A DNA stretch of 64,000 nucleotides from a bacterium (GCA_016125155.1 WGMI01000010.1:1-64000); one strand, 5' to 3'; positions 4,430 through 29,147 are shown, counted from the first letter of the stretch. Made by a program: numbers and translations. Notes: generated by a model not told the origin, from the letters alone.

Positions 4430-4467
4430 CGGAATGGTGTAAAGGCCGTTTCGAATGCAAAGGTCGT

Positions 4468-12607: not shown

Positions 12608-13483
12608 TTATTTTCCTTTGGACTTTTCTGACTTTTCTGACTTTTCTGAAGACGTCGACTTGCCTTTGGACTCTTTGCGCTCGTCGATTTCGGCTTGGCG
12701 CTGCTGATTGCGCTGCTCGAGCTTCTCGGGCTGCAGCCCTTTGTCGATGCCGTTCTTTTTGTAGCCCTTGCCTTCGCCGAGGGGAGGGGTATCGAAATCG
12801 GGCATCAATTTTTGGTCGCCTTGCACGATGTTGCGGAACTCCATCACGCTGTTGCCAGGATACTTGCCGCTTCGGTAGATGCCACACTTAAAATAAGTGG
12901 CCTTGTTGTCCTGATAAAGGGTCGGGATGTTGTCGAGCTCTACTTTTTGACCGTTGATGACGCATTTGAACTTGCCTTTTTTGGGATCGGACGACCAGGT
13001 GATCCAGATCTCTACTTTGTTCCAGTCTTTTTTGAGCGGTACGTTCTGAACGCGCTTGAGTTCGCCGTTGTTGAGCGGGCGCAGCAAAACCGAAATCTGA
13101 TCTTTCCAGAGGTTAATGGCCACCGGACTGCGGTGCCCCCAGCCTTTTTCGATGTTTTCTCGGCCAACGGCAGAATTCAAATGCCAGTCCGCGATGGAAA
13201 AGAACTCATTCTCCAAATAGGTGAATTCGGTCGGCTTAAACTCAAAGGCGTAATAACTCGCCTTGACGGTATCGCATTTGATCTGCGAACAATTGCCGTT
13301 GTACGCATAGTCGTCGGGGCGCACCTCGAATCGGATTACTTCTCCGTTTTGCTGGAGGGCATGGGGCGCACTAACACATACCCGGGGCACCTTGAGCACA
13401 GGAAGAGAAGCGGGCTGTTTTTGGGCGACAACCCCCGTGCTTCCCAAGAGGATGCAGCCGAAAATAACGATCGAATGGTTCAT
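12608..13483 (-). CDS. Secreted polysaccharide-lyase-like protein with a charged repeat tail
   Basis: The protein has 291 residues. A Sec signal peptide (MNHSIVIFGCILLGSTGVVA, cut before Q) is followed by a beta-sandwich domain of about 210 residues that resembles the Polysacc_lyase (heparin lyase I-like) fold, with FEVRPDDYAYNGNCSQ, a central WGHRSPVAINLW and late FKCGIYRSGKYPG strands. The tail is Glu/Lys/Ser rich and ends in a SEK repeat. As the only periplasmic or secreted enzyme-like product of the operon it could trim the polymer during export. ATG 13483 is chosen for the signal peptide and lies 1 bp from the upstream stop. The lyase assignment is by pattern only. Confidence 0.6.
   Translation of the reverse strand: MNHSIVIFGCILLGSTGVVAQKQPASLPVLKVPRVCVSAPHALQQNGEVIRFEVRPDDYAYNGNCSQIKCDTVKASYYAFEFKPTEFTYLENEFFSIADWHLNSAVGRENIEKGWGHRSPVAINLWKDQISVLLRPLNNGELKRVQNVPLKKDWNKVEIWITWSSDPKKGKFKCVINGQKVELDNIPTLYQDNKATYFKCGIYRSGKYPGNSVMEFRNIVQGDQKLMPDFDTPPLGEGKGYKKNGIDKGLQPEKLEQRNQQRQAEIDERKESKGKSTSSEKSEKSEKSKGK
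12621..12647 (-). repeat. Three tandem 9-nt repeats in the lyase-like gene
   Basis: GACTTTTCT on the plus strand occurs three times in a row and encodes the Ser-Glu-Lys tail of the minus-strand gene. The unit is a multiple of three, so copy-number change would lengthen or shorten the charged tail without shifting frame. Confidence 0.8.
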
Positions 13484-13484
13484 C

Positions 13485-14612
13485 TCAAGTCTTCTTAAGT
13501 TCCTGAAAAAGTTGAATATAGGACTGAGCACAACTCCGCATACTGTAGCGCTCGGCATAGCGTCGATACAGGGCGTCGGTTCGTTCTGCGCGCTCGTCGG
13601 CACTCAGATTGAGGGCTGAGCGCAGGGCATCGCCATAGGAGGACTCTTCGGCCGTTTCGCTCAAGACTCCGTAAGGGGCAATCATTTCGGGGATGCCGCC
13701 TACAGGGGTTGAAACGGGCAGGGCTTTGCACGCCATGGCCTCGATGATGCTGATGGGCATGCCCTCATACAGCGAGCTCAGGGCGAAAAAATCGGCGCAT
13801 TGCACATAGTCGGTGGCGTTCGATTTGCCGCCCAACCAAACAATTCGATCGCCCAAATGCGGTGCCATTTCGGCCAAAATAGGGGTGCTGACCGGTGCGC
13901 GCTCAGTGCCCAAAATCCACAAGACCCCGTTGTGTCCTTCGGCCAAAATCTGGGCAAAGGCAGACACCAACATCGCCTGATTCTTCTGAGGGGTGATGCG
14001 GCCAATATTGACCCAAATGCGCACTTCGTCTCCGAATTGCGCCTTGAGCCGGGATACCTCGGCTTGTACTGCGGGCATTTGGACGCTCGATCGCGGCTCC
14101 ATGCGCCCGTTGTCTATGCGCCGGACCCTTTTGAGACCGTAGTACTCGAGAAACGAAGCATGGCTGGTCTCCGAAATGGTAACCGGAAAAACCCGGCCTG
14201 TGGAAAATAAAAACCGTCTGAGCCGGAATTCCTTGTCGCCGCTGACCTCTTTGCGCGCATCGTTGTGGATGGTATGGACCACGGGCACCTTGGGCAAGCC
14301 TAAAAATCCCGCCATCGCCAGATAGTTAACCACGCGCAAATGGGTATGGATGTAGTCGGGGCGCTCTTGCCATAAGGTTTTTCGCAACCGAAGAATCACC
14401 TTGGCATCGAAACCGAGCTTTTTGTCGAGAAAAACCAGCCGAATTCGGGGATCGAGATCGGGGAAGTACTTCAGCCCTTCCTCATTGCGCGGAAACAGCG
14501 AAATCACAACGACTTCGTGGCCCTGATGGACCAGTTCGTTGGACAGATCGACCAGGAAGCGTTCTGCTCCACCGTCGATCAGCATGGGGATGAGCTGGAG
14601 AAACTTAGCCAC
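13485..14612 (-). CDS. Glycosyltransferase family 4
   Basis: This 375-residue GT-B enzyme starts with FLQLIPMLIDGGAERFLVDL, the donor-clamping N-terminal loop of GT4 enzymes, and carries YEGMPISIIEAMACKALPVS near residue 270. It is the third GT4 of the operon. It lies 1 bp upstream of the lyase-like gene and 3 bp downstream of a hexapeptide acetyltransferase gene. Donor and acceptor are unknown. Confidence 0.88.
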   Translation of the reverse strand: MAKFLQLIPMLIDGGAERFLVDLSNELVHQGHEVVVISLFPRNEEGLKYFPDLDPRIRLVFLDKKLGFDAKVILRLRKTLWQERPDYIHTHLRVVNYLAMAGFLGLPKVPVVHTIHNDARKEVSGDKEFRLRRFLFSTGRVFPVTISETSHASFLEYYGLKRVRRIDNGRMEPRSSVQMPAVQAEVSRLKAQFGDEVRIWVNIGRITPQKNQAMLVSAFAQILAEGHNGVLWILGTERAPVSTPILAEMAPHLGDRIVWLGGKSNATDYVQCADFFALSSLYEGMPISIIEAMACKALPVSTPVGGIPEMIAPYGVLSETAEESSYGDALRSALNLSADERAERTDALYRRYAERYSMRSCAQSYIQLFQELKKT

Positions 14613-14615
14613 GGC

Positions 14616-15056
14616 TTACCAGAACTCTTTGGGGTCGATGTTTTCGCGGATCACCTTGGCGGGAACGCCCGCGGCTACACAATTGGCCGGAATATCGCCG
14701 ATCACAACGGCTCCGGCCCCGATCACCGAGTTGTCTCCAATGGTCAGGTCGCCCAGAATCGTGACGTTGTGGCTGATCAACACATTGTTTCCGATCCGCG
14801 GAACCCGGGGCTGCTTGCTCCTGCCCCCCACGACCAAATGGATGCCCAAATTGCAGTTTTCGCCCACTTCGACGTGCTTGTGCAAGGCCACCGACAACCC
14901 CTTGTAGGCAAACAAAGTGCCCTTGCCCAACTTGACGTGGGTGCCGATGTAGGAGTTGTAGATGACAAATTCATAAAACTGAACCAAGCGCGGAATGAGC
15001 GGAATTCTGCGCTGGGTGAACCAATAGCCGAAGCGATGGACGTGTGCGAGATTCAT
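14616..15056 (-). CDS. Hexapeptide-repeat acetyltransferase (serine acetyltransferase-like)
   Basis: This short 146-residue protein has left-handed beta-helix repeats through residues ~45-135, including ISHNVTILGDLTIGDNSVIG and the usual closing VAAGVPAKVI. It resembles the CysE C-terminal domain without the helical N-terminal domain, a form common in polysaccharide loci where it O-acetylates sugars. The upstream in-frame extension would overlap the sulfotransferase gene; ATG 15056 gives a 19-bp gap and a compact domain. Confidence 0.82.
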   Translation of the reverse strand: MNLAHVHRFGYWFTQRRIPLIPRLVQFYEFVIYNSYIGTHVKLGKGTLFAYKGLSVALHKHVEVGENCNLGIHLVVGGRSKQPRVPRIGNNVLISHNVTILGDLTIGDNSVIGAGAVVIGDIPANCVAAGVPAKVIRENIDPKEFW

Positions 15057-15075
15057 AGGGTGCGTTCTCTTGAGA

Positions 15076-15975
15076 TTAGGTTGCTGGGTTTTGGTCTTTT
15101 TCGAGCCATTTGAGGGCCGGCTCAAACCCGTGTTGTTCGGCCAGCTTCCGGCTGTCGCGCTCAAAGCGCTTCCGGAGCGCTCGGCGCAATTCAGGGGAGG
15201 CTTCTACTGGCTTGGAAACGCCCTTTTCGGTATTCCATTCGATGAGCTTTTCCTTGAGCTTTCTCCGGTTTTCCGGACTCAAAATCCGACTCGCCAGGGT
15301 GCGCATCCAGGAGGCGCCTTTGCCCGCCGAAAGCAGTTCTTGAACCGAATCGCTGCGCACCTCGCCGGTGATGTTCCGGTCTTCGTATTGGATGGAATTC
15401 GAATCGGGAAGGGCGAGAAAGTCAAAGATTTTCCGCATAAATCCAGCCCTGTCCCTCCGGAGTTGACCGTAGTCGAGAATCAACAGTCTTTCTCTCGGAA
15501 ACACGGCCAAAATCCGTTCGATCTGTTCGGCATACAAACCGTGTTCGATATAGGTAAAGTCGTTGTTGAAGAAGCTAAAATCTTCGATGGCCCTGGGTTC
15601 GTAGTCCAAGGCTTCCTCGATGCTTCGCTTTTCCTTCCGAAGTTTTTGAAAGTAATTGTAGGCCGATACCGCTCGGTCCACCGGATCGCGGAGAACCGCC
15701 ATCAATTGGAGGTCTGGAATCTGTGCCAGCCCTTCGATGGCCTGTCGATAAATCAGGTAGTTGACGTGGGTGTGGAGTCTGTAGCGCTGGCCTGTATAGG
15801 ATTTGAAATAAGGTTCCATGGCGCGTTCGGGATGCACGCGGCGCTCGGGATGGCTGTAGAAGTCGCGGTCTTTGATCTCGGGAATCGAGAAAATGTCCGG
15901 ATGCTGGCTCAACCAATCGTGCAAACTGGTGGTTCCGGCCTTTTGGGCGCCGAGCAAGACGAGATTAGGCTGCAT
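15076..15975 (-). CDS. Sulfotransferase (PAPS-dependent, Sulfotransfer_1-like)
   Basis: This 299-residue protein has the 5'-phosphosulfate loop LLGAQKAGTTSLHDWL at residues ~6-21 and a 3'-phosphate site LRDPVDRAVSAYNYF near residue 116. It would transfer sulfate from PAPS to a hydroxyl or amino group of a sugar. It is the closest of the five sulfotransferases here to the classical bacterial/heparan sulfotransferase pattern. It overlaps the upstream polymerase gene by 11 bp, tying sulfation to assembly of this glycan. Confidence 0.9.
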   Translation of the reverse strand: MQPNLVLLGAQKAGTTSLHDWLSQHPDIFSIPEIKDRDFYSHPERRVHPERAMEPYFKSYTGQRYRLHTHVNYLIYRQAIEGLAQIPDLQLMAVLRDPVDRAVSAYNYFQKLRKEKRSIEEALDYEPRAIEDFSFFNNDFTYIEHGLYAEQIERILAVFPRERLLILDYGQLRRDRAGFMRKIFDFLALPDSNSIQYEDRNITGEVRSDSVQELLSAGKGASWMRTLASRILSPENRRKLKEKLIEWNTEKGVSKPVEASPELRRALRKRFERDSRKLAEQHGFEPALKWLEKDQNPAT

Positions 15976-17329
15976 GGGCTAGCGCATTGCGTTCTTCGAT
16001 CCAAAAGCGGTGCAAACTGCCGATGGCCCCAGTCAAACAGAGGTGATACCACAGCAGCGAACTCCATAACCAACTGACAAACAAACTGGAGAACACCAAG
16101 GAGAAATAGGCCAAAAACGGCACCAAAAAAAGTCCATATTCCCGCAGCGCACCCCCTCGAATCCGCTTTCGGATGGAGCGGTAGTTGAGCCAAACCCTTC
16201 TCTGAATCAGGAAGTACATAAACAGTCCGATCAGGCCATACTGAATCGCCATTTCGAGGGCCGTGTTGTGAATTACGCTGTCGTGGCCGCTGTGGTCGCG
16301 GGAATAGCGACGGGTTAGGCTGGGGTCTCCGCCTTGTCCGGTCAATGGGCGTTCGAGGAACCCGAGGAACCCACCGGTCCACAATTCGTTGCGCCCGCTG
16401 GACACCTCCTCCAAATCGCGGGTTTCCCCTCCCAATCCGCCGAGACGGCGAAACACCGGATTGTCTTGGTTGAAGAAAATAAACAAGGCAATGGCAGCCA
16501 AAAACCCAAAGAGCACCCCAAAATTGCGCAGATTGAGCCGGAGGCCCACGTAGACCGAGTAGAACAAAAAGCCAATGAGCAAGAACGAAAACAACCCGTT
16601 CCGAGAGCCCGAATTGAGGATGATCCACAAGACCATGAGCAGGGAAGCCCCCGCCCCAAGTCGATACACCGGTTTGTTGCCCGGCTGGAACAACATCAAC
16701 ATGGCATAGGCGCTGATCCCCACCAGCGAAGCGGTGAAGGTGCCATGCCGGCTGTCGCCGAAGTTGAGGTACTCTTGATACCCCTGTGTTACCCCCTTTA
16801 AATTCATATAGAGGAACATGATGAAGAGAAAGGGCACTATGATGTTCTTCATGATTTCGAGGCTGTTGCGAATTCCCCCAACCCCTCTTTGGACAAAAAA
16901 GGCGTAGATCAAGAAGAAAAAGGCAATCTGGGCAAGGTTGGTGATGTTGTTGACGATGATGTTGGCCGCCGGGATATCGCCATAGATGTTGCTCAAGGCT
17001 ATGGCGGTTCCAAAAATGACCATGGCCGTGTATCCGAGAAAAAAGTGCACCATGCGCTTTTCGGCTTTCAAACCCTTAAAAAACAGATCATAACCAATAA
17101 TAGGCGCTATAAAAATGAGGCTAAGCGTTTCGGTCGGAATGGGGAAATTGTCGGTAAACCCCCCTTCGATGGTCGGAATCAGAAAAAGCGTGGGCATGAG
17201 GAAATCCCGGTTCATCATTACGAACGGGATACAAGCCGCAATCAGGGCTGGGGTAGAGCCCAAGAACAGCGCTACGCCTATGGCCGAAACGAATAGAAAA
17301 GATTCTATGTTCTTATATTTCAGCCTCAT
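15965..17329 (-). CDS. O-antigen ligase/polymerase-like membrane protein (Wzy-type)
   Basis: This 454-residue protein has many hydrophobic segments throughout and a large loop (about residues 310-360) after GGLGGETRDLEEVSSGRNEL, matching the O-antigen ligase/Wzy (Wzy_C) pattern with GRNELW...GFLGFLERPLTGQG. It probably polymerises repeat units at the outer face of the inner membrane. The WaaL-type ligase role is an alternative. It sits directly after the flippase gene with a 4-bp overlap, the usual Wzx-Wzy pairing. Confidence 0.82.
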   Translation of the reverse strand: MRLKYKNIESFLFVSAIGVALFLGSTPALIAACIPFVMMNRDFLMPTLFLIPTIEGGFTDNFPIPTETLSLIFIAPIIGYDLFFKGLKAEKRMVHFFLGYTAMVIFGTAIALSNIYGDIPAANIIVNNITNLAQIAFFFLIYAFFVQRGVGGIRNSLEIMKNIIVPFLFIMFLYMNLKGVTQGYQEYLNFGDSRHGTFTASLVGISAYAMLMLFQPGNKPVYRLGAGASLLMVLWIILNSGSRNGLFSFLLIGFLFYSVYVGLRLNLRNFGVLFGFLAAIALFIFFNQDNPVFRRLGGLGGETRDLEEVSSGRNELWTGGFLGFLERPLTGQGGDPSLTRRYSRDHSGHDSVIHNTALEMAIQYGLIGLFMYFLIQRRVWLNYRSIRKRIRGGALREYGLFLVPFLAYFSLVFSSLFVSWLWSSLLWYHLCLTGAIGSLHRFWIEERNALAHAA

Positions 17330-18804
17330 GGCTTAATTCGAATTCCCGTTTTTTTCCGGATCAATTTCGCCAAACGATCGAGGATCTCACAAGCGGGTTC
17401 GCCCAACCATCGGGGGGCGACCCGATAGAGCACGAGCACCACCCCGGCCGACAAGATCAGACTGAGCGAAGCCGCGAGCAGTCCCCTCCACAAACCACTC
17501 CCTTGCAAGCCATATTGGAGCAAAACGCCGGAAGCGGCAAAGACCGCCATGAGCGGGAGTGACGGCAAAAAGGGACGGTATTGAACCGCCCAGTCCATCC
17601 CCACCCTGCGGATGGCCAAGGCCGACATATTGAAAAATTGAAAGACCGAAGTGGCCAGAATGGTCCAGGCCACCGCCGAGAGCCCCCAACGAGCGGTCCC
17701 GATCAGCGCTGAAAACAAAACCACGGTGTAGAGAAACTTCTGGAGGGCGCTCCGGTACACAAGTCCTTTGGCGCGGATGATGGAGTCCGTAAGCCGGATG
17801 CACACCCGGAACGGAATGGCCAAAAACAAAATGCCGAGGGTGGGAATGGCCTCGGTCCATTCGGAGCCCAAGAGCAAGAGGACCACGGGCTCGGCGTGGA
17901 TAGCGAGCCAGACCGAAATGGGTAGGGTGAGGAGCAAACTATAGCTCAAATTGCGTTCGTACATCCCAACGAGGCGCTCGTTTTCGTCCTGGATGCGCGA
18001 CATGGCGGGAAACATCACCTTGTCGATCACGTCGCCCAGCATTTTGCCGGGAATCATCATAATGCGATACGAGCGTTCGAACACCCCGAGCATGTTCAAA
18101 GGCATGAGCTTGCCGAGCAGCAAGTTGAGCCCCGAATTGGTCAGATAGTTGTTGATCCGAATCAGGGTGAGCCCCGCTCCGAAGTGAAAGAGCTCGCGGA
18201 ACTCCGCCTGGCCAAATCCGGCCCCCAAGCGGAGCGGCGTACGACTCAGGACGATGGCCAGTTGAACAAACTGATAGGCAAGGGTGCCGTACACCAAAGA
18301 CCACACCCCAGAGCCGGTCAGTGCCGTGACGACCCCTACCCCCATCCCGATCAAATGGGATAGGTTCTCGACCCAAAAGAGATACTTAAAGTCCATCGCC
18401 CTTTGGATGAGGCTCATAGAGCTACTGGCCGCCGCCGATAGGATAAAACTGAGACACAGTATGGGCAAAATGCCGACCAATTCGGGGCTGTCAAAAAAGT
18501 GGGCAATGCCCCCGGCTCCCAAGGCCGTCGCGGCGTACAAAACCAATCCGACTCCGAGGTTGACATAAAACGAAGTAGAGATGTGCCGAGCGCTCGGATC
18601 GCGGTGTTGAATGAGGGCCGGACCCATGCCGATCTGCGAAAAGAGCTGGGCGAAATTGACAAAGGAGTTGGCAATGGCCATAAGACCAAAATCTCGGGGA
18701 TCGAGAATGCGCGCCAAAACGGCGTAATAGACCAACTGAATTACCGCCAAACCGAGGACGTTGTACAGTTGCCAAAACAGCGAATTGCGCAAGCCTTTGC
18801 CCAT
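17326..18804 (-). CDS. Lipopolysaccharide/exopolysaccharide flippase (WzxC-like)
   Basis: The protein has 492 residues from ATG 18804 (an earlier in-frame start at 18837 would overlap the upstream gene by 28 bp). It has many hydrophobic helices and the WzxC N-terminal pattern SLFWQLYNVLGLA...VLARILDPRDFGLMAIANSF. The family moves undecaprenyl-linked repeat units across the inner membrane. The gene lies between a sulfotransferase (5-bp gap) and the Wzy-like polymerase (overlap). Confidence 0.9.
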   Translation of the reverse strand: MGKGLRNSLFWQLYNVLGLAVIQLVYYAVLARILDPRDFGLMAIANSFVNFAQLFSQIGMGPALIQHRDPSARHISTSFYVNLGVGLVLYAATALGAGGIAHFFDSPELVGILPILCLSFILSAAASSSMSLIQRAMDFKYLFWVENLSHLIGMGVGVVTALTGSGVWSLVYGTLAYQFVQLAIVLSRTPLRLGAGFGQAEFRELFHFGAGLTLIRINNYLTNSGLNLLLGKLMPLNMLGVFERSYRIMMIPGKMLGDVIDKVMFPAMSRIQDENERLVGMYERNLSYSLLLTLPISVWLAIHAEPVVLLLLGSEWTEAIPTLGILFLAIPFRVCIRLTDSIIRAKGLVYRSALQKFLYTVVLFSALIGTARWGLSAVAWTILATSVFQFFNMSALAIRRVGMDWAVQYRPFLPSLPLMAVFAASGVLLQYGLQGSGLWRGLLAASLSLILSAGVVLVLYRVAPRWLGEPACEILDRLAKLIRKKTGIRIKP

Positions 18805-18809
18805 CCTGT

Positions 18810-19697
18810 TCAGACTTTGACGTTCTTTTCCAACCAACGGGCGTAGGCCGACAGCAGAGGATGACTGTCAAAATAGGGCTTACTCTTGTCGTCGTACACA
18901 ATCGGGCGGCGCTCGAAGCGGGAGGGCGTGCCGCCAATGCTATGGCTCGAGAGCGGTTCCATATGGGTTGGCAGTCCGGTGGCAGGGGCTTTTTGACCGA
19001 GAAAATCAAGCAAAGCCTGCAAGGTCGATGCGGTTTCGGTTGCCAGATCCCGATAGTGCAAAGCGAATTTGGCGGCCTCGGGAATGCGGTCCACGACGGC
19101 ATCGGCAAAGCGATTCTGCAGGGCCACCGAGGTGAGGTATTGGAACATCTGAAGCGACGAACCCACCCCGCCTTTGCGGTGTCCAATTTTGGAATAGGCG
19201 ATTTCGGGAATCGAACGCTTGAGGTGAACCACCCGTACCGAATCGGGGCGGGCCTTGTACAGAAAATAACCCTGAAGCGCATCCTTGGAACTGTCGACCA
19301 AAACGCGGGCTCCAGAAACCCGACCAAATTCGTCGAGTATCCGAAGGCTGTCTTGGGCCACTTCCATGCCCGCAATCGAGAGTTTTGCGATGGCCGCATC
19401 GACCGCCTTGGCCACGGGTTCAAACAAGGCCGGTCCGCTTTCGCGGTGGTCGAGACGGGTGCGGAGTTCGTCGAGTTGGATGGTCTGATGTACCACTCCC
19501 CACACGGCGCACGCCCGCACCTCTTGGGCACACGAGCACTTCCACCCCCATTTTTCGCCCGGGCCTTCGTGCTTCAAATGCCCCTGGAGCATGCGCAATT
19601 CGCCCACCGAACCAAAACCTTCCAATTGCCCGAGAAGGTTCTCGAGCAGGGTAGAGCCTGTGCGCCGATCGGATACGATATACAGTATCTGACTCAT
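18810..19697 (-). CDS. Sulfotransferase family protein
   Basis: This 295-residue protein has a PAPS 5'-loop of the Arg type, IVSDRRTGSTLLENLL (residues ~6-21), and a 3'-site VVHLKRSIPEIAYSKIG near residue 155. Instead of the lysine seen in Sulfotransfer_1 enzymes it has Arg-Arg before TGST, as in Sulfotransfer_3/Stf0-like groups. A Cys-containing stretch WGWKCSCAQEVRAC near residues 52-65 is unusual. It is the first of four consecutive sulfotransferase genes and lies 2 bp from the next. Confidence 0.8.
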   Translation of the reverse strand: MSQILYIVSDRRTGSTLLENLLGQLEGFGSVGELRMLQGHLKHEGPGEKWGWKCSCAQEVRACAVWGVVHQTIQLDELRTRLDHRESGPALFEPVAKAVDAAIAKLSIAGMEVAQDSLRILDEFGRVSGARVLVDSSKDALQGYFLYKARPDSVRVVHLKRSIPEIAYSKIGHRKGGVGSSLQMFQYLTSVALQNRFADAVVDRIPEAAKFALHYRDLATETASTLQALLDFLGQKAPATGLPTHMEPLSSHSIGGTPSRFERRPIVYDDKSKPYFDSHPLLSAYARWLEKNVKV

Positions 19698-19699
19698 TT

Positions 19700-20428
19700 C
19701 TAGGGGTTTTTATCCTGAAAACGCTCCCTTAAAACGGCTTCGTTGGTCAATATCAAACCCCGTTTCTGATCGCTCAGCTTTTCGAGCGTCATCTCCAAAG
19801 GTTGTTGGGCGACCTCTAAATGACTGTTGAGTTCGGCGACAAACCGATCCCATTGGGTGGTCATGTGTTCGTAGGTCAATACCGGGGCATTGCGCTTGGT
19901 GGCAAAATCGAGCAGGCGATCGCGCTCGGCTCGGGCCAAGTCGTACAAGGTCCTAAAGCGATCTTCGGGCACGGAAGCGGAACGGGGCGCCCCCGATGCC
20001 AACCCTGAATCGCTGTGGTAGGTGCCGCTCAACTGGGCTTTAGCCGCGGACAGCGCACTCGCAAAGGCGTCTTGCCGAACCAGCACCAAAAAACGCGGAT
20101 TCCGCGCTTCGAGGGCAGGGAGCAAGGCGGGGTTCCATTTGATTTGAGACAGCATGAGCTTAAACCCACACGCCTTGACCCCTCGAGCCGCTTCGGTGTA
20201 AAAGCGATCGAGGTGCGCTTTGATGCGGCCTTGGGCTGCGATTTTGTTCAGGGGCAAATCGAGCTTGCGGAACCCGGTCTGCCAATACCGAAACCGGTAT
20301 TCTTCGTGGTGAATGCCGGGGGCGTAGTGAAAGAGCTCTCCGGCAGCAAAGACTTCCGGATGCGTATCGAGCGAGCGAATCAACAGTGTTGAACCCGTTC
20401 TCTGGCTGCTCAAGAGCGCGAATTCCAT
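19700..20428 (-). CDS. Sulfotransferase, Stf0-like
   Basis: The protein has 242 residues and starts at the 5'-loop LLSSQRTGSTLLIRSLDTHP (residues 5-24), with GELFHY soon after, as in Stf0/trehalose 2-sulfotransferase relatives. A 3'-site-like stretch FLVLVRQDAFASALSAAKAQ is near residue 133. It is among the smaller sulfotransferases and probably sulfates one particular sugar position. It is 2-3 bp from each neighbour. The family call is good, the acceptor unknown. Confidence 0.82.
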   Translation of the reverse strand: MEFALLSSQRTGSTLLIRSLDTHPEVFAAGELFHYAPGIHHEEYRFRYWQTGFRKLDLPLNKIAAQGRIKAHLDRFYTEAARGVKACGFKLMLSQIKWNPALLPALEARNPRFLVLVRQDAFASALSAAKAQLSGTYHSDSGLASGAPRSASVPEDRFRTLYDLARAERDRLLDFATKRNAPVLTYEHMTTQWDRFVAELNSHLEVAQQPLEMTLEKLSDQKRGLILTNEAVLRERFQDKNP

Positions 20429-20431
20429 GGA

Positions 20432-21331
20432 TCAGGCGCGTTTCCAGGTACCGAGGTCGCGCCCAATTCGGGTTTCGAGCGCCTCGATCATCGGGCGGTA
20501 GTAGTCCACCAACACGGCCCGATCCTCCGGGCTCATTCTGGGCTTGACGTCTTCTCGGGTCAAAGAACCGGCAAGGCGGGAGCGCAAGGGCTTGGGCAGG
20601 GCGCGGAGCAGGGCTTTGGAGCGCGGGTGGTTGACCGCGTACAGCAACCACGAAAATCGGGCCTTGCGATAGGTGTTTCGCTCGCTTTGCACGGGGATGA
20701 CAAAGTCTTGGTCGACCCCGATCCAGCGGTAGATCTGACGCAGATTCCCGAGCAGATCTTTGCGCAGGTCTTCGGTGAGCACAAAGTGAATTTGCTCCTT
20801 GGGGAACAGCGATTCGTAGATATCGAGAACGCGCCCATAGTCGCCCCCTTCCAAATAGGTACGGATGATCTCGCCCGGTTTGTGCGTTCCCTCCAAATGC
20901 TCCCGGACCCAGGCTTGCTCGAAGTTCGGGTCGTCAAAATTGAGCCCTTGTTCGCGGTTGGCCCGGATGGCATCGGCAAAGCCGAGCTTTTCGCTTCCGT
21001 TTTCTTTGCGCATCAACCAACCCGAAAAAGCCCGCTCGGCGGGGTCGCGAAAGCTAAAAATGATCTGAGCCTGAGGGAAATGATGAGCAATGCGCTCGGC
21101 GGCGAACCGCAAAAAGGCATAGCTCGGAGTTGCCTCGCCAGCGGCTTTCACCCCTTGCCGCTCGGGGAATTGGGTTTCGAGATAATGCTCCAGACCGTGG
21201 GCATATTCGTTCGAAAAAAACCGGGTCTCCTTGCGCACCGACATCTGGATTTCCGGGTGCTGACTCAAGTAGAAATACAGCGAGCTCGAAGCGCACTTGG
21301 GCGGTCCGGCAACAAAAAAAGTGGGTTTCAT
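20432..21331 (-). CDS. Sulfotransferase (Sulfotransfer_1/heparan-sulfotransferase-like)
   Basis: This 299-residue protein has the 5'-loop VAGPPKCASSSLYFYLSQHP (residues ~6-25) and the 3'-site SFRDPAERAFSGWLM near residue 92. The loop keeps the lysine but has CASSS in place of GTTS. Middle and C-terminal regions resemble N- or O-sulfotransferases of the heparan type. The frame is open far upstream of ATG 21331, but this ATG forms a 4-bp overlap with the preceding stop and starts at the first strand, so it is preferred. Confidence 0.87.
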   Translation of the reverse strand: MKPTFFVAGPPKCASSSLYFYLSQHPEIQMSVRKETRFFSNEYAHGLEHYLETQFPERQGVKAAGEATPSYAFLRFAAERIAHHFPQAQIIFSFRDPAERAFSGWLMRKENGSEKLGFADAIRANREQGLNFDDPNFEQAWVREHLEGTHKPGEIIRTYLEGGDYGRVLDIYESLFPKEQIHFVLTEDLRKDLLGNLRQIYRWIGVDQDFVIPVQSERNTYRKARFSWLLYAVNHPRSKALLRALPKPLRSRLAGSLTREDVKPRMSPEDRAVLVDYYRPMIEALETRIGRDLGTWKRA

Positions 21332-22242
21332 TCGAGGGAGGAGCCCAAGGCTCTGGGTTTTACAATGCCGTGAATGGCCTCTACTTGATCGGGGGTAAAG
21401 TAGTCGGTATCGGGCCGCACATCGTTGCGGACGGGGTTGTTGCGCAGATAGCGATCGATCCAAACCGAGGGCTTCAGCCCTGTAAAATGAAGCATCTCTG
21501 CCATCGAGCCCCCCGGATCGCGGACAAAGTCCTCGTAGCGCACTTCGAGCAAGGCGGGGCGCCAACGGGCCGCTTCCATTTCAAAAATCTGGTTCAGCTT
21601 TCGGTATTGCAGGGCCCCGAGCAATTCAGGCTTGCCTGCCAAGGAGTCAGCAAACTGCTGTTCTTCGGGAGAATACGCCCCCTGCCACCACAACTGATCC
21701 ATGCCCTTGTCTTGCCAAAATTCCACCTTGAGCCAGCTGCTGATGGTAGGCACCGGGGCTCTGCGGATGTGGATAAACAGGGCGTCGGGAAACAAATCGA
21801 GCAAAAAACCCATCCGTGCCGGACCCGTGAGCTTAAACGCCAATTGCCGGCGCCCCTGCAAACGGACCATCGAATCGAAAAATCCCAAGACCGCTTCTTT
21901 TCGGGGTTCGCTTAAGCGCTCGTCCAATAAAAATCCCCTCGAAAAATCGACCTCGTTTGCGGTCAAGGCCTCCCACATCGAATAGCTCTCTCCTGGTTTG
22001 AAGGCATATCGGTTTAGGAACCCAGCCTTGTGGAGCTGTTCTTTTTTGCCTTCGTAGCGGTACAAAGGGTTGTCAAAGACCCATCGCACCAATGAGGCCG
22101 CGGTTTTTCCTGGAAACAGGTGGTCGTAATTGCTCGGCCACGCCAAGTGCGGATGCCGAAAGAGGGCCTCAGAGATGATCGTGGTCCCCGAACGCCCGGT
22201 GCCAAAAACCACAATGGGTCTCGATAGTCGGTGTCTGGCCAT
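21328..22242 (-). CDS. Sulfotransferase family protein
   Basis: From ATG 22242 the protein has 304 residues, with the 5'-loop VVFGTGRSGTTIISEALFRH (residues ~11-30) and a 3'-site LFIHIRRAPVPTISSWL near 165. The Arg-Ser-Gly-Thr-Thr form belongs to the Sulfotransfer_3 type. A TTG at 22263 would make a TTGA overlap with the upstream stop; ATG 22242 seems likelier but the TTG cannot be ruled out. It is the fourth sulfotransferase in an unbroken row. Confidence 0.83.
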   Translation of the reverse strand: MARHRLSRPIVVFGTGRSGTTIISEALFRHPHLAWPSNYDHLFPGKTAASLVRWVFDNPLYRYEGKKEQLHKAGFLNRYAFKPGESYSMWEALTANEVDFSRGFLLDERLSEPRKEAVLGFFDSMVRLQGRRQLAFKLTGPARMGFLLDLFPDALFIHIRRAPVPTISSWLKVEFWQDKGMDQLWWQGAYSPEEQQFADSLAGKPELLGALQYRKLNQIFEMEAARWRPALLEVRYEDFVRDPGGSMAEMLHFTGLKPSVWIDRYLRNNPVRNDVRPDTDYFTPDQVEAIHGIVKPRALGSSLE

Positions 22243-22259: not shown

Positions 22260-23558
22260 TCAAAGACGGGCGTCTACCATTGCCGGATCCAAGAAGGATT
22301 TAATGTCGAACACCACGTTTTCAGGCTTTTTGAGCTTGGCTAAATCGAGGTCGGCAAACTGATCGTGGGAAACGGCCAAAACAATGCCGTCGTAGCGCTC
22401 TTCAGGCAAGGTCGAAAGCAGTTCCACCCCATATTCGTGGCGCACTTCTTCGGGATCGGCCCAGGGATCGTACAGGGTGGTATTGACCCCGAACTCTCCG
22501 AATTCCCTGTAAATGTCGATGACCCGCGTATTGCGAATGTCGGGGCAGTTCTCTTTAAAGGTGAATCCCAACAACAGCACCTTGGAGCCGTTGATACGGA
22601 TCCCTTTGTGAATCATCATTTTGATGACTTTGTTCGCGACAAAATGCCCCATATTGTCGTTGACCCGACGCCCAGATAAAATTACATCGGGCTGATAGCC
22701 AAGGGCCTGCGCTTTAAAGGCGAGATAATACGGATCGACCCCGATGCAGTGCCCACCCACCAAACCGGGCTTGTATTTCAGAAAATTCCACTTGGTCCCC
22801 GCGGCGTCGAGGACGGCCTGGGTATCGATGCCCATGCGGTCGAACATCAAGGCGAGTTCGTTGACAAAGGAAATGTTGACGTCCCGCTGGGCATTTTCGA
22901 TGGCCTTGCTCGCTTCGGCCACCTTCATGCTCGGTGCTTTGTGGGTTCCGGCTGTAATGATGGAGGCGTACAAAGCGTCGACAAAATCGGCCGCTTCCGG
23001 GGTAGAACCCGAGGTTACTTTTTTGATTTTCGTCAAGGTGTTGACCTTGTCTCCCGGGTTGATGCGTTCAGGCGAATAACCGCAATAGAAATCGCGGTTG
23101 AACTGTAGTCCGCTGTTCTTTTCGAGCACGGGAACGCAGTCTTCTTCGGTGCAACCGGGATAGGTCGTCGATTCGTAAATCACCACATCGCCCTTGGAGA
23201 GCACCTTGCCCAAGGCCGTTGAAGCGCTGATCAAGGGGCGCAAATCGGGGGTTTTGAAATCGTCAATGGGGGTTGGTACCGTGACGATGTACACATTGCA
23301 AGCGCTGACCTCTTCGAGGCGGTCGGTCAAGTACAGCCCCGGGCCCGATTGGGGCGTCAAGACCCCAGGAGCGAGACAGGCTTTGAGCTCGGCCTCGTCT
23401 ACTTCGAGCGTATGGTCCTTGCCCGATCGCAGTTCTTCGACCCTTTTGGTGGAAATGTCGTAGCCCACACAAGGGTATTTATGACTGAATTCCAGCGCCA
23501 ATGGCAGCCCGACATAACCGAGCCCTACTACGCAGATCCGGGCTTCTTTGACATCCAT
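22260..23558 (-). CDS. Nucleotide-sugar 6-dehydrogenase (WbpA/WbpO/TviB-type)
   Basis: This 432-residue NAD-dependent enzyme oxidises C6 of a UDP-HexNAc to a uronate. It has the Rossmann motif VVGLGYVGLPLALEF at the N-terminus, the proton-shuttling region TVPTP, and the catalytic Cys in GLVGGHCIGVDPYYL near residue 257. The sequence fits the UDP-GlcNAc/UDP-GalNAc dehydrogenase group rather than UDP-glucose dehydrogenase. ATG 23558 overlaps the upstream stop as TGATG; an ATG 12 bp earlier is possible. It supplies the uronic acid expected from the lyase and sulfotransferase context. Confidence 0.9.
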   Translation of the reverse strand: MDVKEARICVVGLGYVGLPLALEFSHKYPCVGYDISTKRVEELRSGKDHTLEVDEAELKACLAPGVLTPQSGPGLYLTDRLEEVSACNVYIVTVPTPIDDFKTPDLRPLISASTALGKVLSKGDVVIYESTTYPGCTEEDCVPVLEKNSGLQFNRDFYCGYSPERINPGDKVNTLTKIKKVTSGSTPEAADFVDALYASIITAGTHKAPSMKVAEASKAIENAQRDVNISFVNELALMFDRMGIDTQAVLDAAGTKWNFLKYKPGLVGGHCIGVDPYYLAFKAQALGYQPDVILSGRRVNDNMGHFVANKVIKMMIHKGIRINGSKVLLLGFTFKENCPDIRNTRVIDIYREFGEFGVNTTLYDPWADPEEVRHEYGVELLSTLPEERYDGIVLAVSHDQFADLDLAKLKKPENVVFDIKSFLDPAMVDARL

Positions 23559-24088
23559 CACTCGCTCCATAACAACAAGGGTTTGTAGTCCAGTTTTTCC
23601 AAATGTCCTTTAAGTTCCTCAGGCCTCAGCAACAAATACCTGATTTTTCTGTGCACAATGGGTTCGGCCTTCTCAATGAGGCGAACAAGATAATTGGTAT
23701 CGATTTCGGAACCGACAAAGACCAGATCGATGACATCGGAGGCGATGCCGCGCGCAAAACTGCCTTCGAGATACAATTGCTTCAATCCGCCTATTTTTTC
23801 GACAATGCGCACAATGACTTGATCGAGTCCGATGAACTTCTGGACAATAGACTGCAAATCGCCAAACAAGGGGTGCTTGTGGTTGGCCTTGTAGAGTTTC
23901 TTGTTGCCTTCGAAGTGAGAAACGAGTAAGTCTGCCTCTTCAAATCGGTTCAACTCGATGCGAATGGCATTGGTGCTTTCGCCGAATTCTTGCTCCAAAT
24001 TCCTCAGATAAGCGCTGTTGCTCCCATTCAAAAAGAACTTGAGCAAGAGTTTGAGCCGGGTTTTGGAGGTAATGAGTGTGTCGAGCAA
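23558..24088 (-). CDS. Winged-helix regulator with nucleotidyltransferase-like domain
   Basis: In 176 residues this protein combines an ArsR-like winged helix-turn-helix (residues ~1-75: LLKFFLNGSNSAYLRNLEQEFG...NAIRIELNRFEEADLL) with a C-terminal MNT-like nucleotidyltransferase fold (KQLYLEGSFARGIAS, then DLVFVG; the GSF/GSxARG and aspartate pattern). It sits immediately before the dehydrogenase gene in the operon, overlapping it by one base. It may be a cluster-specific regulator, or a transferase that modifies a partner. Function is not established from sequence. Confidence 0.7.
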   Translation of the reverse strand: MLDTLITSKTRLKLLLKFFLNGSNSAYLRNLEQEFGESTNAIRIELNRFEEADLLVSHFEGNKKLYKANHKHPLFGDLQSIVQKFIGLDQVIVRIVEKIGGLKQLYLEGSFARGIASDVIDLVFVGSEIDTNYLVRLIEKAEPIVHRKIRYLLLRPEELKGHLEKLDYKPLLLWSE

Positions 24089-24155: not shown

Positions 24156-25193
24156 TCAAACCCCTGCCCCGCTCGCGAAATCGCCTTGGCGCAACCGGTA
24201 CACTTTTTCGATAAATTCCACCACCTTCATCCCTTCGAGGGCGGTGGTCCCCACGGCGGCTTCCGCGCGCAATACCTCGAGGACATTGCGGTGCACGGCG
24301 GCCCGGTTCTGCACTTGTACCCCGTCTCGACCCGCCGCTTCGCGCACCTGGGCAAACTCGCCCGGATGGACCTCGGGGAGACTGCAGAAATCGAGTTTCT
24401 CGAGGTATTGACCGCTGACGCGCAGCGCCCCTTTTGAGCCGATGAGCGAAAGCGAGCTCTCAAAATTGGATTCGGGCACAGCCGTGGTGTAGGCGAGACT
24501 CCCGAGGGCGCCTTGGGCGAGGTCAAAATGAATCAAGCCGCTGTCTTCAAACTCGGTATTGTTCCGGTGGGCGTAGTTTGCAAATACGGGGGTACCGATC
24601 AGCTTCAGGGGACCAAACAGCCAATACAGGGTGTCGATAAAGTGGCTGAATTGCGTAAACAGTGGCCCGCCATCTCGATCGAGGCTTCCGTGCCACCCCG
24701 CCCGGGTCCGGTCTGCTCCATAATAGCGCTCGTCTCGGTTCCAATAACAGCGCACATCGGCCATACGCAGGGTTCCGAGCCGCCCTTGCTGCACGACGCC
24801 CCGCAACCAAATCGCCATGGGGCTGTAGCGATTTTGCATCACCACAAAAACCTGTCGGCTCTGCTCGAGTGCCACCTGGAGCACCCGTTCTGCGCTCGAT
24901 CGGCTCGTGGTCATGGGCTTTTCGATGACGGCGTGCAGCCCTTGTTTAAGGGCGGCAATCGCCAATTCTGCGTGTTGTCCGTTGGGAGCTGCAATCAAGG
25001 CTACATCGGCCCCGAGGGCGCCGAGCCCGCTCAAGTCTCGAATGGAGGGGGCCGAATAGGGGAAGCAATCGAGGGCTTCAGCAGAAGGGTCGTAGAGGCC
25101 GGCCAATTCCATTTCAGGGTGCGCATCAATCAGTGCGGCATGCGCCTGACCGATGCGGCCACAACCCAAGATCACCCAGCGCAGTTTCTTCAT
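24156..25193 (-). CDS. Gfo/Idh/MocA-family oxidoreductase (WbpB/WlbA-like)
   Basis: This 345-residue protein has an N-terminal NAD-binding fold (WVILGCGRIGQAHAALIDAHP), the EKPM motif near residue 94 with its catalytic Lys, and a C-terminal Gfo/Idh domain. In WbpB/WlbA it oxidises C3 of UDP-GlcNAc-uronate to a 3-keto sugar for amination. The adjacent WbpD-like gene, joined by a 4-bp overlap, makes that role likely. ATG 25193 is chosen for this overlap, although the frame is open for 28 codons upstream. Confidence 0.83.
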   Translation of the reverse strand: MKKLRWVILGCGRIGQAHAALIDAHPEMELAGLYDPSAEALDCFPYSAPSIRDLSGLGALGADVALIAAPNGQHAELAIAALKQGLHAVIEKPMTTSRSSAERVLQVALEQSRQVFVVMQNRYSPMAIWLRGVVQQGRLGTLRMADVRCYWNRDERYYGADRTRAGWHGSLDRDGGPLFTQFSHFIDTLYWLFGPLKLIGTPVFANYAHRNNTEFEDSGLIHFDLAQGALGSLAYTTAVPESNFESSLSLIGSKGALRVSGQYLEKLDFCSLPEVHPGEFAQVREAAGRDGVQVQNRAAVHRNVLEVLRAEAAVGTTALEGMKVVEFIEKVYRLRQGDFASGAGV

Positions 25194-25816
25194 TCTGCCG
25201 TGCGGGTGCCCACCGCAATCACCCGGTCGTCGGGCGAGCGATAATACCAATCCGATCCTTCCGGGCATTGCGCCCAACCCCCGGCATCAAACTCGAGGCG
25301 GTGCCCGGCTTTGCTCATCCAACCGATGCGGCGGGCAGGCACGCCGACCACCAACTCAAAGGGGGCGACGTCGCGGTGCACCACGGCTCCAGCTCCCACA
25401 AAGGCATACTCGCCCAATTCGACACCGCACACCAAGGTGGCGTTGGCCCCAATGCTCACCCCGCGGTGCAGGCGGGTAGGTCGGTATTCGCCCCGGCGCA
25501 CTACGCCCGAGCGAGGATTCAAGACATTGGTAAACACACAGGAAGGCCCCAAAAAAACCTCGTCTCCCACCTCGACCCCTTCATAGAGCGATACGTTGTT
25601 TTGCACCTTGACTCCCCGGCCCAAACGGACCCCGGAAGCGACAAAGACGTTTTGACCCAAGGAGCAGTCGGGGCCAATCTCAGCCCCCGGCATAATGTGG
25701 CAAAAATGCCAAATCTTAGAGCCCGATCCAATGTGTACACCCGGGTCGACCACGGCGGTGGGGTGTACAAAGGGCTCGGCATACCCGCCCGAAGCCGATG
25801 GGCTCTGTGGGCTCAA
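25190..25816 (-). CDS. WbpD-like UDP-amino-sugar-uronate N-acetyltransferase
   Basis: This left-handed beta-helix acyltransferase closely follows the WbpD pattern: VKVQNNVSLYEGV, VFLGPSCVFTNVLNPRS, IGANATLVCGVELGEYAFVGAG and VVGVPARRIGWMS. WbpD acetylates the 3-amino group of UDP-GlcNAc3N-uronate. No ATG exists near the start. A TTG at 25816 gives a TTGA overlap with the preceding stop (208 residues) in the style of the other junctions, while a GTG at 25846 gives 218 residues. Together with the WbpA- and WbpB-like genes it outlines a 2,3-diacetamido-uronic acid pathway. Confidence 0.85.
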   Translation of the reverse strand: MSPQSPSASGGYAEPFVHPTAVVDPGVHIGSGSKIWHFCHIMPGAEIGPDCSLGQNVFVASGVRLGRGVKVQNNVSLYEGVEVGDEVFLGPSCVFTNVLNPRSGVVRRGEYRPTRLHRGVSIGANATLVCGVELGEYAFVGAGAVVHRDVAPFELVVGVPARRIGWMSKAGHRLEFDAGGWAQCPEGSDWYYRSPDDRVIAVGTRTAE

Positions 25817-28275
25817 GCCTTGTGGCGCTTTTTCCGACCAAACCACTTGCGGCGATCGGCTCCGTCTTCGTCTTCGTAATAGCCGTATCCATAGCCATAC
25901 CCGTACCCATAGCCGTAGCCGTAGCTGCCTTTGGTATTGTAGTCGTTGATGACGATTGATATGTTCTTGACCGCTCCTTTGCGCGATTGCTCGTGAATGT
26001 GCTGGAGCAATTCTTTGTTGGTGTAGTTCTGGCGCACCACATACAAACTGAGGTCGGCGAACTTGATCATGTCAAAAGGATCGCTTACCAGCCCTACCGG
26101 GGGGGTGTCGAGAACGATGTAAGCATAGCGCTTGCGCAAGTCTTCGATCATTTTGCTGAAGTTCTCGCCCATGATCAACTCACTCGGGTTCGGGGGAATC
26201 GGCCCCCCTGAAATGACATCGAGGTGGGGGTGTTCGGTGCGCTGAATGGCTTCGTCCAAGGTGCATTGACCTGAGAGCAAACTCGAAACGCCCACGCTGT
26301 TGTTCAGTCCAAAGTCATTGTAAATCTTGGGCTTGCGCATATCCATCCCAACGATGAGCGACTTTTTGCCCGTGATGGCCAAAACCAAGGCCAAGTTGGT
26401 CGAGCAAAAGGTCTTGCCCTCTCCACCCACACTCGAGGTCACCAAAAACACCGTTCCGCTGTCGTCTTTTTCGCGAATCAGGAATTTGAGGTTCGAGCGA
26501 ATGGCGCGGAACGATTCGGCAATCGACGATTTGGGGTGGCGCGTCACCACCAGCGTGGTGTCTCGGTCGTTGTGGCCCACAATACCCAGAATCGGGATGT
26601 TGGTGATCTTCTGAATGTCTTGACGCGACATGATCTTGTCGTTGGTCAGGTCTCGGGCCACAAAAAACACCGTAGGCAGCAACAGCGCCAAGACGAGTGC
26701 ACCTGCAAAATTCAATCCCTTGCGGGGCGAGAGCGGATCCTTCGCCGTAAGCGCAGAATCCACCACCTGGTTGTCGGGCAAATTCGAGGCCTTGGCGATT
26801 CCCGTCTCGGCCCTTTTTTGCATCATGAAGACAAATAAATTCTCGTTGAGTTGATACTGCCGCTCGATGTTCAGGTAGTTGCGCTCAACCTCGGGCAATC
26901 GCTTTAGCTCGTTTTCCAGACCGCGGATTCGGACATCGAGGTCGCGCATTTTGAGTTTGCTCTGGGCAAAGGCGCCCTGTAAATTCTCTTTCAGCAAACC
27001 CGAAACGCTGCGCATTTGCTCCTCGATGCGCTTGAGTTCGGGGTTGCCCGGGCGCAGTTCGAGCCGCATGGTGCTGTAGCGGGTCGAGATTTCGTTCAAT
27101 TGACCGATGAGGCTGACGGTCGACGGGTCGGTGATTCCCACTGTATACGGGGCCACGACACCGGTCAGGGCATCGCCTTTGTCGAGGTAGTTCACTAAAT
27201 ACTCGATGTATTCGAGCCGCATTTTCTCTTCGCTCCGCTGGCCTTCGAGCAACGTAAATTGCTCGAAGAGCGAACGGCCCTCTTCCGAGAGATCCACCAC
27301 CTGTTCTTCGGTGCGGAAGGCCTGCCGCAACCCTTCCACCAGCCGCAGAGAATCCTGGAGCTTGACCAATTCGCCCTCGATAAAGTTCAAGGTGTTTTCG
27401 GCCATCACATTTTTCTGTTCCAAGCCAAATTGGATGTATTGCTCGATGAAGGTGTTCAGAAAGTCCCGATCCTTGGCGGGCACGCTGCCCACAATTGACA
27501 AAACCGCTCCCGACGACCCTTCGGCCGCGGCTTCGATGGTCAAACGCTTGCTGTATTCTTCGAGCAAATTGGCGTTTGAACGAAAGCGGAACTGCATGGG
27601 TTCGTCTTTGACCTTCACGTGTTCGGTCCGCACCACGCGAAAACGGCAACCCGCTGTTTCAATCCACTCCCCGTAGCGGAATGTGCCCCGCACCTTCTCG
27701 AACGATGCCCGGCTCTCTGCGCTCATCTCGACCCCGTCGCGTTTTTCAAAAGAATAAAAGCGTTCGGGTTTTTCGAGGGGCTTGAGGACAAATCGGTCCT
27801 TGTCTTTGGGTTGAAGCGAATACAGCAGGCCGACGGCTTGAGGATGCGCTGGATCGTACTCGACCCGAATGGGGCTGTTGGGATAGACCTCGTTGGCCAA
27901 AAACTTGCCTTCGCTGTAGTAGGCCACTTCAAAGTGCAACTGGTCGAGGGCGCGCTGCAGCATCTGATGCGACTTCATGACCAAAAGCTCGTTCTCAAAA
28001 TCGAGGCGGGGATTGTAGTAGCCAATGGCGCTCATCACAGACTCCAAGCCCGCATTGACGCCGCTGTTGTCGGTATTGATGAGCAACAAAGCCTTGGTTT
28101 TGTACTTGGGCGTGGTATACCGGTTGATGAGGTAGGCCCCCAAAATGCAAAGGATAGCGCTGATCAAATAAACGGGCCATTGACCGACAATTCTCGACCA
28201 AAGCTGTTTGAGATCGAGGCCTTCGTCTTCTTTGTTTTGGCCGCGTTCGACCGGGGTAATTCCTTCTGGGCTCAT
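25813..28275 (-). CDS. Wzc-type polysaccharide co-polymerase and tyrosine autokinase
   Basis: The protein has 820 residues: an N-terminal Wzz domain with a hydrophobic segment (VYLISAILCILGAYLI), a long periplasmic coiled-coil region, a second membrane segment (LNFAGALVLALLLPTVFFVA), then a cytoplasmic BY-kinase with Walker A SSVGGEGKT, Walker A' VGMDMRKP and Walker B VLDTPPVG. The C-terminus is a tyrosine cluster built as a Gly-Tyr repeat followed by acidic and basic residues, probably the autophosphorylation tail. It controls chain length and export together with the Wza-like protein encoded directly upstream. ATG 28275 is preferred to GTG 28281. Confidence 0.92.
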   Translation of the reverse strand: MSPEGITPVERGQNKEDEGLDLKQLWSRIVGQWPVYLISAILCILGAYLINRYTTPKYKTKALLLINTDNSGVNAGLESVMSAIGYYNPRLDFENELLVMKSHQMLQRALDQLHFEVAYYSEGKFLANEVYPNSPIRVEYDPAHPQAVGLLYSLQPKDKDRFVLKPLEKPERFYSFEKRDGVEMSAESRASFEKVRGTFRYGEWIETAGCRFRVVRTEHVKVKDEPMQFRFRSNANLLEEYSKRLTIEAAAEGSSGAVLSIVGSVPAKDRDFLNTFIEQYIQFGLEQKNVMAENTLNFIEGELVKLQDSLRLVEGLRQAFRTEEQVVDLSEEGRSLFEQFTLLEGQRSEEKMRLEYIEYLVNYLDKGDALTGVVAPYTVGITDPSTVSLIGQLNEISTRYSTMRLELRPGNPELKRIEEQMRSVSGLLKENLQGAFAQSKLKMRDLDVRIRGLENELKRLPEVERNYLNIERQYQLNENLFVFMMQKRAETGIAKASNLPDNQVVDSALTAKDPLSPRKGLNFAGALVLALLLPTVFFVARDLTNDKIMSRQDIQKITNIPILGIVGHNDRDTTLVVTRHPKSSIAESFRAIRSNLKFLIREKDDSGTVFLVTSSVGGEGKTFCSTNLALVLAITGKKSLIVGMDMRKPKIYNDFGLNNSVGVSSLLSGQCTLDEAIQRTEHPHLDVISGGPIPPNPSELIMGENFSKMIEDLRKRYAYIVLDTPPVGLVSDPFDMIKFADLSLYVVRQNYTNKELLQHIHEQSRKGAVKNISIVINDYNTKGSYGYGYGYGYGYGYGYYEDEDGADRRKWFGRKKRHKA
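25877..25925 (-). repeat. Hexanucleotide repeat coding the (Gly-Tyr)n tail of Wzc
   Basis: A run of degenerate 6-nt units (AGCCGT, AGCCAT, ACCCGT, ACCCAT on the plus strand) encodes about eight consecutive Gly-Tyr pairs near the Wzc C-terminus. In-frame slippage would change the number of phosphorylatable tyrosines. Confidence 0.8.
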
Positions 28276-28288
28276 TCCCACAACGGGG

Positions 28289-29092: not shown

Positions 29093-29147
29093 CGGACAGA
29101 AGGTGGTTGACAATGCCTGTATCCCGATTCCTGTGTGGAATTGGGGG

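Follow-up and report, generated by a model that had tools for sequence, protein, structure and literature searches.

A Wzx/Wzy Operon With Five Sulfotransferase Genes

We analyzed a 64,000-nucleotide stretch of bacterial DNA (GCA_016125155.1, WGMI01000010.1:1-64000; hereafter, the window), which lies on contig C22 of a 2.45-Mb metagenome-assembled genome (MAG) that is 90% complete and belongs to a Bacteroidota bacterium. The window contains five sulfotransferase (ST) genes, ST-A to ST-E, and we consider it probable that they encode carbohydrate sulfotransferases dependent on 3'-phosphoadenosine 5'-phosphosulfate (PAPS), which jointly decorate the repeat unit of one Wzx/Wzy exopolysaccharide. 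Four of the genes lie head to tail at 18810-22242, and the order along the minus strand is ST-D, ST-C, ST-B, ST-A, Wzx, Wzy, and ST-E. The intergenic gaps D/C, C/B, and B/A are -4, +3, and +2 bases, and each of the five open reading frames (ORFs) has an ATG start and no internal stop. The five genes are enclosed by a complete exopolysaccharide operon (3281-29113), in which Wzx, Wzy, the co-polymerase, the export protein, the priming transferase, glycosyltransferases (GTs), and STs are all present together (Table 1). From 29113 to 3281, all the main genes are on the minus strand and are tightly packed, with small gaps or overlaps, although some of the listed overlaps stem from alternative upstream starts. 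The 2.45-Mb assembly yielded eight ST genes, of which five fall within 7.2 kb, and because this arrangement is also conserved in other genomes, the clustering is not attributable to chance. The three further STs are on other contigs of the same genome (C19:24990, C13:75419, and C5:1594), and no CysC, CysD, CysN, or CysQ homologues were found in the regions around them.

Table 1. Genes of the exopolysaccharide operon, listed in the order of transcription, with the model matches that support each assignment.
Feature	Position	Strand	Evidence
Wza-type outer-membrane export protein	28289..29113	-	PF02563
Wzc-type chain-length regulator / tyrosine kinase	25813..28281	-	PF02706, PF13807, PF13614
Hexapeptide acetyltransferase	25190..25846	-	hexapeptide-family matches below cut-off
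Gfo/Idh/MocA sugar oxidoreductase	24156..25277	-	PF01408, PF22725
Small helix-turn-helix (HTH)-like protein	23558-24088	-	weak ArsR-type match, 14 bits; no Pfam match
UDP-HexNAc 6-dehydrogenase (TviB-like), uronic acid-making	22260..23570	-	NDP-sugDHase TIGR03026 over cut-off
ST-D, 304 aa; PAPS loop GTGRSGTT; 3'-phosphate-binding site IHIRRAPVPTISSWLK	21328..22242	-	PF13469 67.6
ST-C, 299 aa; loop GPPKCASSS; heparan sulfate 3-O-sulfotransferase (3-OST)/N-sulfotransferase (NST)-like	20432..21331	-	PF13469 49.3, PF00685 37.3
ST-B, 242 aa; short, Stf0-like; loop SSQRTGST	19700..20428	-	PF13469 30.3, PF09037 27.3
ST-A, 295 aa; loop SDRRTGST; conserved VDSSKD motif	18810..19697	-	PF13469 40.8
Wzx flippase	17326..18837	-	PF13440 282.7 bits
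Wzy polymerase / O-antigen ligase family	15965..17329	-	PF04932 54 bits
ST-E, 299 aa; loop GAQKAGTT; heparan sulfate ST fold	15076..15975	-	PF00685 65 bits
Hexapeptide acyltransferase	14616..15164	-	PF00132
Glycosyltransferase GT-c (GT4 type)	13485..14612	-	PF13439, PF13692; 52% to G031
Polysaccharide lyase-like protein	12608..13603	-	PF14099 37.4 vs cut-off 29.9; conserved in G031
Glycosyltransferase GT-b	11555..12598	-	PF13692, PF00534
UDP-GlcNAc 2-epimerase (WecB)	10452..11543	-	TIGR00236 302 bits vs cut-off 210
Heparinase II/III-like protein	8550..10448	-	PF07940 86.7, PF16889 62.4
Glycosyltransferase GT4a	7324..8652	-	PF13579, PF00534
Priming sugar-phosphate transferase (PglC/EPS type)	6697..7320	-	PF02397 195 bits
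Amino-sugar tailoring: formyltransferase, PIG-L deacetylase, NeuD/PglD acetyltransferase, DegT aminotransferase	3281..6700	-	

Family Assignment and Mutual Relationships of the Sulfotransferases

The ST families were assigned with Pfam models and their curated cut-offs (PF13469, 27; PF09037, 22; PF00685, 22), and all five proteins exceeded a sulfotransferase cut-off. A 5' PAPS loop with Lys or Arg near the N-terminus was found in all five proteins and their orthologues; in the five it lies within the first ~20 residues, a position that leaves no room for a signal peptide. All five also carry the 3'-phosphate site (Arg...Ser). Its conservation holds for classes A, B, C, and E, whereas the class D orthologue from SZAS-22, a distant Bacteroidetes MAG, aligns as IVRDPYFTIQS. 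An earlier reading of the window, made from the sequence alone (the sequence-only reading), had described four consecutive ST genes and a fifth at 15076. This was borne out by the family scores and by the presence of both PAPS motifs, and no class has lost the residues of its PAPS site.

The pairwise global identity among the five STs was 20-28%, so recent duplication of the genes was rejected, as the sequence-only reading had held. A significant domain-long BLAST match was obtained only for C/E (25%, 3e-13), and similarity between the other pairs was confined to short stretches, for example the P-loop. The related claim that the genes represent different subfamilies stands for the most part, except that ST-C and ST-E are not wholly different: both match the bacterial structure 3rnl as well as heparan sulfate 3-O- and N-sulfotransferases from humans. 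Against the PDB, ST-C matched 3rnl (6.9e-26) and both 1nst and 1t8t (3.5e-8), and ST-E matched 1t8t (1e-12). In ST-C, the Glu that serves 3-OST as catalytic base is also retained (GEATPSY vs EKTPSY in 3-OST, by alignment). The structure prediction that the sequence-only reading had proposed as a check gave a heparan sulfate ST fold for ST-E (predicted local distance difference test score, pLDDT, 88), with a Foldseek E value of 1.8e-12 to 3rnl and matches to human NDST1/3-OST, whereas the model of ST-A, built from two sequences, had a pLDDT of 38 and was unusable. Although ST-E resembles heparan sulfate 3-OST/NST enzymes both in sequence and in fold, we do not count it as a member of that family. 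Assignment of ST-B as a trehalose 2-sulfotransferase was rejected because it scored 14 bits against the NCBIfam equivalog, whose cut-off is 400, despite exceeding the Pfam Stf0 cut-off (27.3 vs 22).

Conservation of the Set in Other Genomes

The set recurs in several other genomes in different gene orders. In G031, which belongs to the same family but another genus, contig C67 ends with D, C, and the start of B, and contig C258 starts with the end of B, followed by A, Wzx, Wzy, E, GT-c, the lyase-like gene, the hexapeptide gene, GT-b, and the heparinase II/III-like gene, which is the last on that contig. These two contigs overlap in the middle of ST-B and were left unjoined, and the gene order is read as D-C-B / A-Wzx-Wzy-E. 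The full-length STs of G031 are 47-57% identical to those of the window; the identity of the window's Wzx is 55% to the G031 copy and 37% to the SZAS-22 copy. SZAS-22 has a single cluster with the order Wza-Wzc-D-A-Wzx-B-C-Wzy-GT-CysQ-CysC-CysD-CysN-E, and after E come another GT, an additional C-type ST, and a dehydrogenase. The order is CysQ-GT-A-E-B-C-dehydrogenase in G678, from another order of the class, and Wzc-C-A-Wzx-Wzy-E in G022; Wzy adjoins ST-E in G031 and G022 as in the window. In a Parafilimonas MAG, CysC and a sulfate adenylyltransferase are encoded beside B and A.

Orthologues of ST-A (31-50% identity) and of ST-C were each found in five other genomes, and those of ST-B in G031, SZAS-22, G678, and the Parafilimonas MAG. 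The ST-D orthologues are 57% identical in G031 (L015:10339-11247) and 48% identical in SZAS-22 (L114:6673-7581); ST-D used as the sole query against genome contigs gave no match. The ST-C search yielded related contigs labelled Flavobacteriia and Cryomorphaceae. In an all-against-all BLAST, each ST of the set had as its top match a same-class protein from another genome, above any protein of the other classes. The gene order varies, yet the set persists, which argues for a shared function, and its conservation in distant genomes makes a single polymer the likely target of the five predicted enzymes.

We also analyzed how common these genes are. ST-A is the best marker of the set: among the 88 genomes of the family, three have strong matches to it, and in the class sample of 395 genomes, two have matches at E <= 1e-20, its own genome being included in both counts. 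STs in general are ordinary in the family, with a PF13469 match in 86 of the 88 genomes. A plasmid search returned only a 326-base match, located in a dehydrogenase gene, and the Deinococcus region of that match lists no sulfotransferase. Two other ST arrays were observed. At L108:4599-8550 in G018, three tandem PF13469 STs with near-alike GRxRSGTTLLQ loops lie beside a large protein; these look like paralogues, unlike the set in the window. The contig with L066:5804-8689 (Bacteroidetes Ww573) has three tandem C-type STs together with A-like and E-like STs.

PAPS Supply and Proposed Pathway

PAPS is cytosolic. The genome encodes a CysC-CysD-CysN operon on contig C32, adjoining a 601-residue permease-like ORF. 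No PAPS reductase was found in the assembly, from which ~10% of the genome is missing; PF01507 matched only CysD. Since no such enzyme was detected in the assembled part, sulfation is the apparent use of PAPS there.

In the pathway that we propose, CysC, CysD, and CysN would supply PAPS, and three GTs and one priming transferase would build an undecaprenyl-linked oligosaccharide in the cytosol. The STs would sulfate this lipid-linked repeat unit while it is being built, before it reaches Wzx, each modifying a different hydroxyl or amino group, after which Wzx would flip the finished unit, Wzy would polymerise it, and Wzc/Wza would export the polymer. Two features make cytosolic sulfation of the lipid-linked repeat unit the most likely course: the donor is found in the cytosol, and the N-terminal PAPS loops exclude signal peptides. 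Sulfation at this stage would give a fixed pattern for each repeat. In animals, several Golgi enzymes write the sulfation patterns of heparan sulfate, and the results are heterogeneous; we would expect the sulfation here to be uniform for each repeat, unlike those variable patterns. The sequence-only reading had suggested a small sulfation code on one repeat unit. This is borne out only in part: a single polymer is indeed pointed to by the orthologues of all five STs in one SZAS-22 Wzx/Wzy cluster with PAPS genes, but a variable code is not expected.

The three GTs and one priming transferase suggest a repeat unit of about four sugars, if no GT is encoded elsewhere, and consequently up to about five sulfates per repeat. 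That the polymer contains an amino sugar and a uronate is suggested by the genes for WecB and the TviB-like dehydrogenase and by the two lyase-like genes; such a product would be acidic. The probable product of the cell is a surface polymer that bears many sulfates. It is also conceivable, though less likely than not, that five regiospecific STs, inherited as a unit across Bacteroidota, sulfate an amino-sugar/uronate lipid-linked repeat at five positions, with ST-E using a base other than Glu, and that the product could reach the sulfate density of heparin with an exact repeat-by-repeat pattern. If the STs act on a defined repeat, the operon would yield sulfated glycans that are uniform and genetically programmable, and its enzymes would form a compact toolkit in which each sulfates a specific position.

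Alternative Interpretations

Several observations weigh against the joint decoration of one exopolysaccharide. His68 of ST-E replaces the catalytic Glu; the Wzx/Wzy locus of G022 has only STs C, A, and E; a PAPS reductase may be encoded in the unassembled part of the genome; and in the synechan (xss) cluster of Synechocystis PCC 6803, deletion of xssE changed bloom formation and the amount of exopolysaccharide little (PMC8205485), so the loss of an ST from a cluster of this type may have no visible consequence.

The alternative that survives best retains a single polymer but assumes overlapping or hierarchical specificity, with some STs redundant and others order-dependent, so that fewer than five positions are sulfated. 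The relationship between C and E, the second C-type ST in the SZAS-22 cluster, and the reduced set of G022, in whose genome no match to ST-D was found, are consistent with this. However, A, B, and D have no detectable likeness outside short stretches, and the five classes remain separate across genomes; we regard this alternative as rather unlikely. The clusters with three and with five STs offer a natural comparison.

The second alternative concerns ST-E alone, whose activity is less certain without the usual catalytic Glu: it might be a catalytically degenerate member that has kept the PAPS fold and acts as a scaffold or specificity subunit. In the ST-E clade, the column of the 3-OST catalytic Glu is occupied by His in three orthologues (window, G031, and G022) and by Gln in two (SZAS-22 and G678), whereas across 93 C/E-type sequences it is Glu in 58 and Asp in 16. 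Nevertheless, three PAPS-site residues (K12, R96, and S104) do not vary within the clade, the gene is present in all five genomes in which the cluster is readable around it, and other ST families are known to use His as the base; according to a review, ST bases may be His or Glu (PMC11625862). Degeneracy of ST-E is unlikely in our view. The base would be another residue, perhaps the His, or else the enzyme is altered.

The Stf0 family is known for the sulfation of glycolipids. That the STs serve different products (the exopolysaccharide vs a glycolipid, protein, or small molecule) and are adjacent only for historical reasons would fit the Stf0-like ST-B and the ubiquity of STs in the family, but is improbable, because in genomes of different families and orders, and in several gene arrangements, STs of these classes again lie next to polysaccharide genes, and ST-B fails the trehalose 2-sulfotransferase model. 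Joint decoration of one exopolysaccharide is therefore the interpretation that we prefer.

Other Genes of the Cluster

Against the TviB model, the dehydrogenase scored 555.8 bits, slightly under the cut-off of 592. The HTH-like gene inside the operon has a GC content of 46%, below that of its neighbours, and its product is a possible regulator of the cluster. The biosynthetic operon holds two lyase-like genes (12608-13603 and 8550-10448), and both kinds also occur in the G031 cluster. The cluster is flanked by a plus-strand gene (239-2731) whose product combines a type IX secretion sorting tail with repeats of CBM48/AMPK-type starch-binding-like domains. This may be a surface protein with a link to the polymer, and its homologues lie beside the clusters of both G031 (L015:1-2906) and G022 (L046:1999-4503).

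Comparison With Known Systems

The closest precedents are other Wzx/Wzy clusters. The synechan cluster likewise has STs of distinct subfamilies, two in number, and its sulfate content "roughly fits" the gene number, the measured composition being two sulfates per eight sugars (PMC8205485). The synechan product was shown by chemistry to be sulfated, whereas the cluster described here is known from its genes; in addition, synechan has two STs and eight GTs in a cyanobacterium, compared with five STs and three GTs plus a priming transferase in Bacteroidota. The wps-1 cluster of Actinoplanes missouriensis also combines two STs from different families, of which one is heparan sulfate ST-like, and deletion of either lowers spore release (PMC13390465). 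It differs in having only two STs, in belonging to an actinomycete sporangium, and in its product being putative.

The sulfated-capsule clusters of Vibrio KMM 8419 and Cobetia KMM 1449 (PMC11641403, PMC11766843) contain STs together with cysC, cysN, and cysD, as SZAS-22 does. Unlike these, the genome of the window keeps its cys genes on another contig; moreover, the Vibrio and Cobetia clusters are ABC-transporter dependent, and the Vibrio ST genes are in separate regions. In Pontiella, three putative glycosaminoglycan STs have been reported, one within an exopolymer cluster (PMC7356697).

Among individual enzymes, ST-C and ST-E resemble the animal heparan sulfate 3-O- and N-sulfotransferases and 3rnl (from Alicyclobacillus) in sequence, and ST-E also in fold, and the catalytic Glu is kept in ST-C. 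In contrast to the animal enzymes, the STs of the window are bacterial and have neither a signal peptide nor a known glycosaminoglycan substrate, and ST-E has His for Glu. ST-B resembles the mycobacterial trehalose 2-sulfotransferase Stf0 at the level of the Pfam family, but differs from it at the level of the specific model and in its location in an exopolysaccharide operon.

In the literature that we searched, no conserved set of five STs and no Bacteroidota cluster of this kind was reported, which is a weak negative because most subscription journals were outside the scope. Our results extend the evidence that, among bacteria, sulfated polysaccharides are not peculiar to cyanobacteria. Wzx/Wzy clusters with multiple STs are already known from synechan and Actinoplanes wps-1; what is new here is a set of five STs that is conserved between genomes.

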